64,000 nucleotides of DNA. It comes from a virus. The notes beneath the pieces are model-generated. The model was not told the DNA's origin. It saw only the letters and a program-made list of their open reading frames with translations, and did not search any database. Positions within the stretch are counted from its first letter, which is position 1. The number at the start of each line of letters is the position of its first letter. The DNA lies in the IMG/VR virus record IMGVR_UViG_3300030339_000003, positions 62,001-126,000 of that record. One strand, given 5' to 3'. Below, piece by piece: positions 4,251-16,194 of this stretch. A program made the position numbers and the translations under genes.

Positions 4251-4286
4251 TAATACTCCTACTCCCTTGCGGGAGTAGGAGTATTA
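4251..4286 (-). terminator. Hairpin terminator after the major capsid gene
   Basis: Perfect 16-bp stem with a TTGC loop, read as GCAA (a GNRA tetraloop) in the minus-strand RNA. It lies 81 bases beyond the capsid stop, far more than the 3-21 bases seen elsewhere, but 22 bases beyond the stop of the -1 frame extension. Confidence 0.85.
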
Positions 4287-4308
4287 TATTTAAGACGACT
4301 GTCTTTTA

Positions 4309-4398
4309 TTACAGCAAGTATTCGGTATCACTTAGACTACCATAGTACGTTGCCGGAATACGAAGAGTTAAGGCGCCGTCACGTCTTTGGTAAAAACC
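4309..4398 (-). other. Candidate -1 frameshift site and C-terminal extension of the major capsid protein
   Basis: The capsid frame ends at 4368. The -1 frame is open across the stop and continues to tandem TAA TAA at 4306-4311, ending in RIPATYYGSLSDTEYLL. A run GGTTTTTA at 4391-4398 (capsid codons GTT TTT ACC) lets the Phe tRNA re-pair one base back. From memory it resembles the GGUUUUC slip site of T7 gene 10, which makes the longer capsid form 10B. A slip there would replace the last seven residues with 27 others. The new stop lies 22 bases from the terminator, the normal spacing in this genome. Not proven; the alternative is an unusually long 3' leader. Confidence 0.45.
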
Positions 4399-6617
4399 GG
4401 TTTCACTTCGGTGTTAACCAGTTCTACTTTGCTTACCGCGTCAGGATCAACAGCGCCAGCAGTAGTAGCAACAGACTGACCAGGAGCGGTACGAATGTTA
4501 ACGCCACCCAGTTTGCTGAAGACACCATTGTCGTCCAGGAAGTCAACAGCGTCGAGGATGTCGAGACGACCCATCAGCACGTTGAGGTTCCATTGACGGT
4601 AGCAAGGCATGGTCATCATGACGCCGTAGTCTACGGTACCACGAGTTACGTTGCCGTGCAGAACGATGTTTTCTTTAGCGATGTTAACGCCAACACCGGC
4701 CAGTGGGTTGATACGATCTTCGGTAGAGTCATTGGTAGGGATAATGAAGATCTTACCAATCATCAGGTCGAAGTTAGTTGGAACGATTTCGAAGTTCTGC
4801 ATGGCAGAAATACGGGAATCGCCAACACGCATCAGGAAGCGCGCCAGGTTCTGGTGAGCAATGACGGTCCATTTGGTTTTCTCAACGCCAGAGTACTCGT
4901 TGATAGCCGCGATGTTCGATTTGAATTCCAGAGCTGCTGCAATATCCTGGATTTCATAAAGAACCAGCGCACAAATGTTTTCGAACACGTCAACGTTGTC
5001 CGGAGAGCTGATATGATCTTGGATACGCAGGGAGCGCAGTACTGCAGCTGGGCGGCAGAACATACGACCTGGCAGATCATTACCACCGGTGTTGTTATCA
5101 ACAACAGGCTGGCCATCGATGCTACGCAGATAATCGAAGTGATTAAACGCTTCATCGAATGCTTTACGGGAACAGCGAGTCTGAATGGTCACACCCATAT
5201 AGGAGATCGCATCATCCAGAGATTCTTTGTTCACGTCTTCTGCACGCACAGGGTATTTGACGGAAACAGGAGTCTGACGGTTAGTGGTCAGTTCTTTGTT
5301 TGCATCATACACTTCCAGGCGGTAACCGAAGTTGCCGTTGTTGGCGTTGGTCAGGTTCATTTCAGGTGTTGCACCGTTAACGGTAGAACCCTGCAGTTTG
5401 CGCATCAGAACTTTCTCTGCATCGGTGCCGTTCACGTGAGTGATACGAGCGCCATCAACCAGACGGGTCAGTGATTCGATAACCACTTTACCGGTAGTCA
5501 GAGACAGGGCAGTTGTTTGACGGTTATAACGACCAGTCATACGGATGTGCAGGTTAGGCTCGTAACCAGCAGTATAGAACGCCTGGAACAGAGCTTTAGC
5601 AGAAGCGCCTTCATCATCAACGATCTGAGATGCGGCAACATGACGCAGAGAAATATCAACGTCACGGTCGTTCGAGTTCTGACCGATAGACGTTGGCGCC
5701 ATATTGGTGTTGGTCATTGAGCTAGTGTCAATGAAGAACTGGATTTTAGTACCGTCGAGAGTACCTTCAACGCCGACTTCGGTGATGCGGATAGATGCTG
5801 ATTCGATATCATCAGTATCAGTCCAACCACGTTGGCCAGGAGCTTGGCAAAGACCGAGCAGTGAAGGAATAGACGCAGGAACCGCCAGCATTTGGGTCAG
5901 GTGGTCTTGACGGCCATATGCGTCGCCGGAAGCGTAAGCAGCAGGAGTAGCAGCTTTGATAGTAGGATCCAGGAACAGATCGTAGTTATCATCAGCTTCT
6001 TCTTCTGGGAATACCGGGTAGATGCGCAGCAGATCGTCTTTGAACAGATCGCCAGTACGCAGCACACCGAAGATCGGAGTCAGTTCAGTCATTGATTCCC
6101 ATGCGTTTGCGCCGTTGACATAAGAGCCAACACCCGCAGCACGGACGTTCATGCGAACACCTTCGTCTTCGTATTTGATCTGGATAGTTTTGTACAGCTG
6201 CTCAGCAGCGGCAGTTTGCAGACGGGTCTGAGTGTTCAGAACGATGTTAACTGCTTTGGTAGTAGCTGAGCTACCTTCAAAGTTGTTCATCGTAAAGCCT
6301 TCAAGACCTTCGCGTTTTGCCATAGACTTTACGTCAGCGTCGGTAATAACGTTTTCAACAGCTTTTGCGTAGTCAGTACGACCCATAGAGGCAGCGACCG
6401 CGGAGAAGTTTGAAGCGTTAACGTTTTGTTTCAGACCGCGACCAAAAGCAGAGACACCGGATTCAGCATTGCTAAAACCATTCAGTTGCTGTTCAGCGGC
6501 GCCAAAAGATTCCATACCGGATAAGGAGGAGAACTTTTTGTTATCAATCAGATCCAGTGTTTCTTTAACCAGGTTACCGGAAAGGCGAACGCTGGCGCGA
6601 ACATCTTTTAAAGTCAT
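4368..6617 (-). CDS. Major capsid protein (phiKZ gp120-like)
   Basis: 749 residues, almost exactly the length of phiKZ gp120. It forms the icosahedral shell. The N-terminal 100 residues look like a delta/propeptide region with candidate head-protease sites of the (S/A/G)-X-E type: GME at 34-36, AAE at 40-42 and NAE at 50-52. The mature part is rich in Asn, Asp, Thr and Val, as in HK97-fold capsids. The gene is visibly richer in G+C and CTG codons than its neighbours, fitting high expression. AAGGAT sits six bases before the ATG, with a TTTTATG promoter-like element and a perfect 16-bp palindrome upstream. A -1 frame extension is possible at the 3' end. Identification rests on length, composition and synteny. 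Confidence 0.85.
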   Translation of the reverse strand: MTLKDVRASVRLSGNLVKETLDLIDNKKFSSLSGMESFGAAEQQLNGFSNAESGVSAFGRGLKQNVNASNFSAVAASMGRTDYAKAVENVITDADVKSMAKREGLEGFTMNNFEGSSATTKAVNIVLNTQTRLQTAAAEQLYKTIQIKYEDEGVRMNVRAAGVGSYVNGANAWESMTELTPIFGVLRTGDLFKDDLLRIYPVFPEEEADDNYDLFLDPTIKAATPAAYASGDAYGRQDHLTQMLAVPASIPSLLGLCQAPGQRGWTDTDDIESASIRITEVGVEGTLDGTKIQFFIDTSSMTNTNMAPTSIGQNSNDRDVDISLRHVAASQIVDDEGASAKALFQAFYTAGYEPNLHIRMTGRYNRQTTALSLTTGKVVIESLTRLVDGARITHVNGTDAEKVLMRKLQGSTVNGATPEMNLTNANNGNFGYRLEVYDANKELTTNRQTPVSVKYPVRAEDVNKESLDDAISYMGVTIQTRCSRKAFDEAFNHFDYLRSIDGQPVVDNNTGGNDLPGRMFCRPAAVLRSLRIQDHISSPDNVDVFENICALVLYEIQDIAAALEFKSNIAAINEYSGVEKTKWTVIAHQNLARFLMRVGDSRISAMQNFEIVPTNFDLMIGKIFIIPTNDSTEDRINPLAGVGVNIAKENIVLHGNVTRGTVDYGVMMTMPCYRQWNLNVLMGRLDILDAVDFLDDNGVFSKLGGVNIRTAPGQSVATTAGAVDPDAVSKVELVNTEVKPVFTKDVTAP

Positions 6618-16095: not shown

Positions 16096-16194
16096 TTATA
16101 AGTGATAACCGCTAGGATAACCATTCGTACTATACGGCATTTCACGCACAATACGTTCAGCGCCTACGGTAAAGTCACTTAAGCCTCCTTTTTT
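16096..16194 (-). other. Candidate -1 frameshift site and extension of an inner-body protein
   Basis: At 16188-16194 the gene reads A AAA AAG in the frame required for classical tandem -1 slippage, the heptamer used by E. coli dnaX. Eight bases later the zero-frame stop TAA occurs, while the -1 frame stays open for about 30 residues, ending MPYSTNGYPSGYHL at TAA 16096-16098. The terminator follows 11 bases later. A GGAGG lies just after the slip site; no good start codon for a separate small gene is spaced to use it. Frameshifting is inferred. Confidence 0.5.

Follow-up and report, generated by a model that had tools for sequence, protein, structure and literature searches.

In a branch of the phiKZ-like jumbo phages, the 3' end of the major capsid protein (MCP) gene very probably constitutes a programmed −1 frameshift cassette that makes a minor form of the MCP carrying a C-terminal peptide tag, judging from comparison of the sequences. 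The strength of the case differs between the phages: −1 frameshifting at the 3' end of the MCP gene is almost certain for the EL/RisingSun-like branch as a whole, and it is likely, at G_GTT_TTT, for the phage represented by the window (the whole stretch of 64,000 nucleotides of viral DNA that was analysed), which is the least certain case. A programmed −1 frameshift that gives a longer capsid form had been proposed in a first-pass annotation of the window, and comparison of 36 genes strongly supports that proposal. The majority of ribosomes would end at the zero-frame stop and produce the 749-aa MCP, and a minority would slip −1, on G_GTT_TTT in the window's phage and on CCCAAAC, GGGAAAC, AAACCCG or AAAAAAC in its relatives (mostly with the aid of a hairpin some 6 nt farther on), to produce a C-terminally extended MCP with the tag. 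We infer that slippage occurs, that it is rare and that the extended MCP enters the capsid; the tag may then dock a shared partner, and frameshifting would limit the capsid to a small number of docking sites.

Features of the window's phage are listed in Table 1. The zero-frame MCP is a clear member of the phiKZ gp120 family, matching PF25620 (PhiKZ_MCP) with E = 3e-117 and 392.7 bits (cut-off 27), and its PHROG assignment is phrog_3231, major head protein. The run that had been noted at 4391–4398, seven codons before the capsid stop, is indeed present: GGTTTTTA at 4398–4391 reads CCG GTT TTT ACC in the MCP frame, and the slip site lies 21 nt from the MCP stop. Its likeness to the T7 slip site, which had been put forward as well, is borne out by the T7 sequence, in which G_GTT_TTC, the same type of site in the same phase, lies 9 nt before the gene 10 stop (NC_001604); G_GU is given as the T7 site in a review (PMC5009743). 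Translation also confirms that the −1 frame remains open past the capsid stop as far as TAA TAA at 4306–4311, giving YQRRDGALTLRIPATYYGSLSDTEYLL, and the predicted long form of the MCP would be 742 + 27 = 769 aa. The spacing of the next hairpin had been offered as a further argument, namely that stop-to-hairpin distances in the window are 3–21 nt except for the 81 nt of the capsid gene. That range holds for 17 of the 19 window ORFs with a clear hairpin and the MCP value of 81 nt stands, but one further ORF has a gap of 94 nt. The latter is a minus-strand ORF of 296 codons at window position 16179. Translation of the extension would shorten the capsid gap as had been stated (to 22 nt by the earlier count); we measured about 20 nt from the −1 stops.

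Table 1. Features of the MCP gene 3' region in the window, and tagged proteins encoded elsewhere in the same genome
Feature	Coordinates	Strand	Basis
MCP gene, zero frame, 749 aa, phiKZ gp120 family	4368..6617	−	ORF; PF25620; phrog_3231
Candidate slip site G_GTT_TTT (T7 gene 10 type, Val-Phe codons)	4392..4398	−	Sequence
Zero-frame stop TAA, end of short MCP form	4368..4370	−	ORF
Putative −1 extension YQRRDGALTLRIPATYYGSLSDTEYLL and double stop TAA TAA (4311–4306)	4306..4392	−	−1 translation; 35 equivalent MCP tails
Core tag motif PATYYGSL inside −1 extension	4333..4356	−	Same motif C-terminal on two other proteins of the genome
5' arm GACGGC of possible stimulatory stem, 11 nt past slip site	4375..4380	−	Folding
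3' arm GTCGTC of possible stimulatory stem	4294..4299	−	Folding
Terminator-like hairpin TAATACTCCTACTCCC-GCAA-GGGAGTAGGAGTATTA	4251..4286	−	81 nt past zero-frame stop, ~20 nt past −1 stops
775-aa virion structural protein, phrog_3222 (outside window)	L073:16653-18980	−	Related to solved PHIKZ128 (9xqs; also 11lx, 36za)
214-aa phrog_18233 protein, ending IPATDYGHL plus ten residues (outside window)	L079:7296-7940	−	Own genome

For the comparison we assembled 36 distinct MCP genes of the EL/RisingSun-like branch from phage records and IMG/VR, among them those of Pseudomonas phage EL, Erwinia phage RisingSun and Shewanella phage FishSpeaker; the sampled MCPs are about 40–97% identical to the window MCP, and 25 representatives among the 36 genes are more than 7% divergent in their final 300 nt. 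Scans of viral contigs with the FishSpeaker and phiKp_32 MCPs alone gave no match, and no relative was found in bacterial genome contigs. Two EL-like records are peculiar in other ways: in Pseudomonas phage vB_PQ1 (L069, PQ516283.1; 488 features) the MCP gene is split into several ORFs, which looks like the result of sequencing errors, and Pseudomonas phage MIZ-Pa99 (L065, PV472050.1) is filed under Straboviridae and has an extra CDS annotated directly after the MCP.

All 36 MCP genes have a tail of similar form in the −1 frame past the stop. It reads SVSPANYGRLEYPELP in EL, RLIPSTNYGRLG in RisingSun, SINPYYYGNLGTDVNQDVGV in FishSpeaker and LIILPSTFYGELDQQAYLG in the 64% relatives, with VIRVAAAYYGVLDPE or SLPDTYYGVLKSFT among other relatives; the tails are about 10–27 aa long and their consensus is [IL]P.T(Y/D/N)YG.L. 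The core YG.L occurs within 75 nt of the stop in the −1 frame of 35 of the 36 genes (the exception is L007, below) and in the other two frames of none of the 36, at a chance rate, from shuffled sequence, of 0.5% per gene. In ten independent close pairs the −1 frame of the tail region has a pN/pS of 0.24 (31 synonymous and 22 non-synonymous changes, P = 2.5e-7), or 0.18 once the pair formed by the window's phage and L007 is left out; the values for the remaining two frames are 1.14 and 1.80. Indel or synonymous drift that breaks the −1 frame in relatives had been named in advance as the observation that would count against an extension, and we find the opposite, since the tail is kept in frame and in position and is under purifying selection. 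The suggestion that both the −1 peptide and the GGTTTTT run might be conserved fared unevenly: the peptide is kept, but the run is confined to the 97% relative. Both tail and heptamer (below) are absent from 10 of 10 phiKZ-like relatives outside the branch (phiKp_32, pTD1, Vibrio phages 5 and 2 TSL-2019, PDCC-1, Miami, OBP, AH04, pAEv1810 and FLC8), and the cassette thus marks one branch within the gp120 family.

An in-phase heptamer of the form X_XXY_YYZ ends 0–9 nt before the stop in 30 of the 36 genes; heptamers of this form occur 21 times in 26,495 codon steps along the same ORFs, a frequency that predicts 0.11 genes. The heptamers used are CCCAAAC or CCCAAAT, GGGAAAC, AAACCCG and AAAAAAC, and most relatives have CCCAAAC, GGGAAAC or AAACCCG at the stop. 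Four relatives (L014, L016, L029 and L059) have only the imperfect heptamer AACCCCG, which mispairs in the P site, as the T7 site does. It counts against slippage that AAC and CCG are not known as the best A-site codons for it in bacterial ribosomes. The 85–100 nt past the heptamer fold more stably than their dinucleotide shuffles (mean z −3.4; below −2 in 33 of the 36 genes), and the main stem mostly starts 6–7 nt past the heptamer; its arms are TCCCTTCAACC/GGTTGAAGGGA in RisingSun, ACCCTTATTAC/GTAATAAGGGT in FishSpeaker and CCGTGAG/CTCACGG in EL. The kept −1 frame, the heptamers, the hairpins and the purifying selection together support the frameshift reading.

Canonical heptamers are missing from the window's phage and from L007, its 97% relative, where the only candidate is an identical G_GTT_TTT, and the family might frameshift while the site of this particular lineage has decayed and its tail become vestigial. 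Decay would fit a non-canonical heptamer that lies far from the stop and is followed by a weak stem (in the window z is −1.1 to −1.3, and 24 of 200 shuffles are equally good; L007 retains the stem with an altered 3' arm, z −2.2). It would also fit the motif of L007, TYYRSL, in which R replaces the motif G, and the mild constraint that is all this pair shows when taken alone (pS 0.37, pN 0.18). However, the −1 frame is open without an indel in both phages, and indels start directly after its stop; the window tail can be aligned to the tails of the 64% relatives as P.T(F/Y)YG.L....YL; G_GTT_TTT is the type of site that works in T7; and the tag is kept on two other proteins of the same genome. 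We consider decay unlikely, and functional −1 slippage at G_GTT_TTT is the reading that we prefer for the window's phage.

The two other proteins were found by scanning the phage's own genome for the motif (Table 1). The C-terminus of the PHIKZ128-like protein has three tandem copies, LVLPGTYYGN...LLIPPTYYGVL...LIIPPTYYGTV, and its relatives in the branch mostly have one to four (for example LPETNYGRL, GPADYGRL and DPANYGRL in EL gp104, LPDTYYGEL in G017 and VIPRTYYGDL in L089); copies are absent from the PHIKZ128-like proteins of Klebsiella phage Miami, Vibrio phage VP4B, FishSpeaker and the metagenomic phage L094. The best phrog_18233 homologue ends with the tag in 19 of the 19 branch genomes with a readable locus, a count for which loci were chosen without reference to the motif and motif-found loci were set aside as circular. 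In RisingSun, gp89, gp197, gp205 and gp206 carry the tag at or close to their ends, and gp206 was detected by mass spectrometry of lysate (PMC6034870). When a motif profile that drew only on MCP tails from other phages was run against each of five genomes (the window's phage, EL, RisingSun, FishSpeaker and G017; about 70,000–140,000 ORF positions per genome), the C-termini of PHIKZ128-like and/or phrog_18233 proteins ranked at the top in all five. An AlphaFold2 model of a phrog_18233 protein (pLDDT 88.6) places the tag as a predicted coil after a confident domain. The model of the MCP itself, from a 23-sequence alignment, is poor (pLDDT 55, with the C-terminus below 50). Untagged phrog_18233 paralogues end in another repeat, KYDGTYKYDGTIKY or RYNGKHRADGSVRAL (L177 ORF 1453-2070 and L179 ORF 1396-2064), which is possibly a second kind of C-terminal tag.

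Its recurrence at the ends of other proteins in these phages makes the motif look like a docking tag that several proteins share. The role that we find most plausible for the tag is docking of a virion component common to its carriers, with frameshifting setting its low copy number on the capsid, but this is a tentative reading of the sequences to which we give less than an even chance. One peptide might, with the same reservation, serve as a common socket that is present in tandem on the PHIKZ128-like protein, singly on phrog_18233-type proteins and in few copies on the capsid. A different role, in which the tag marks clients of the phage's GroEL-like chaperonin and is not a virion docking site, is suggested by gene order. 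The chaperonin gene of the window's phage (L079:8868-10493) adjoins its phrog_18233 gene, in EL the phrog_18233 protein is ORF147 and adjoins the GroEL-like chaperonin ORF146, and this adjacency is kept in most relatives. In other phages, MCPs are known to be chaperonin clients. Nonetheless, the chaperonin is also present in 9 of 10 phiKZ-like outgroups that have no MCP tail, and because it occurs in such tail-less relatives we do not favour the client reading and consider it improbable. In addition, the tagged genes of RisingSun and FishSpeaker lie 10–20 kb from the chaperonin gene, a client mark would be odd on only a minority of MCP copies, and the EL chaperonin is reported to have the endolysin gp188 as its partner (PMC7185714).

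Several candidate readers of the tag were considered and rejected. The chaperonin is not co-distributed with the MCP tail. A sortase-type LPxT tag, brought to mind by LPxTYYG, was set aside on finding that sortase PF04203 is absent from seven tag-bearing phages. Sequence searches find phrog_18233 proteins in 21 of the 23 records that bear the tag and in none of the 10 outgroups. When folds are compared, however, virion and tail proteins of jumbo phages without the tag share the phrog_18233 fold, so that this co-distribution is weak evidence; a search of the PDB with the protein gave no match below E 0.001.

Other explanations of the conserved stretch fare worse. It could be a non-coding RNA or terminator element in which the peptide reading is coincidental, as the region is filled by strong hairpins and a terminator-like hairpin comes next. 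This is very improbable: substitutions are codon-structured in the −1 frame only, it is the peptide motif and not the DNA that recurs, through different codons, at the ends of two other protein families, and the slippery heptamers would be left unexplained. A separate tiny peptide made by re-initiation near the MCP stop, and not a fusion, might be imagined from the in-frame ATG at the stop (TAATG) in 3 of the 36 genes (L020, L024 and L059). Upstream of the motif in the −1 frame, however, 33 of the 36 genes have no ATG, which makes separate initiation unlikely, and 27 of the 36 have no ATG, GTG or TTG; heptamers are conserved instead of start codons, and we give re-initiation hardly any credence. 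Stop-codon readthrough or transcriptional slippage in place of ribosomal frameshifting is scarcely credible either: the extension does lie directly past the stop and there are short A, C or T runs at the site, but the conserved frame is −1 and not zero, the MCP stop codon varies among relatives (TAA, TGA or TAG), and runs of 3–6 bases are short for polymerase slippage.

Ribosomal −1 frameshifting, the reading that we retain, is a mechanism of the same kind as in the known frameshift-extended coat proteins. Such −1 extensions are known in T7, T3, A2, A118 and A500, and PSA uses +1 (PMC5009743); as proposed here, two coat forms come from one gene by programmed frameshifting. The echo of T7 10A/10B that had been suggested holds for the type of site and for the gene context, an MCP gene with a −1 slip near its 3' end and a minor C-terminally extended form, but it does not extend to the sequence of the extension. 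No YG.L was seen by eye in the −1 frame past the T7 site, and the tail is not homologous to that of 10B, which is extended by a longer, unrelated sequence and depends on a distant CCCC in the terminator (PMC5009743); here the tails are 10–27 aa with a linear motif, and the window's relatives differ from T7 in having canonical heptamers at the stop and an adjacent hairpin. T3 and A2 add an Ig-like domain (PMC5009743), for which tails of about 10–27 aa are far too small. Ig-like domains resemble the tag in being an accessory module found on several virion proteins, either frameshifted or in frame (PMC5009743), but they are folded, whereas the tag is a linear motif of about nine residues that is tandem on one protein.

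In keeping with the first-pass annotation's belief that such a capsid form had not been described for phiKZ-like phages, we found no earlier description in a literature search with little coverage of subscription journals. The RisingSun paper, which detected the MCP at 75% coverage, never mentions frameshifting (PMC6034870). The annotations of EL, RisingSun and FishSpeaker give the short capsid protein only, and a minor capsid form has therefore probably been missed. Three points are new: the group of phages concerned, the occurrence of both canonical and T7-type sites in a single gene family, and the nature of the extension, a short motif found as well at the ends of other proteins of the same phages. 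If the proposal is correct, a widespread branch of phiKZ-like jumbo phages joins the few smaller phages in which capsid frameshifting is known, and the many natural variants of site and hairpin in that branch are available for comparison. Should the docking role also hold, the number of capsid sockets would depend on how efficiently ribosomes frameshift, one and the same plug would attach a shared partner, such as an adhesin, fibre or assembly factor, to both head and tail, and the shared tag would offer a direct way to study the mounting of extra parts on large virions.
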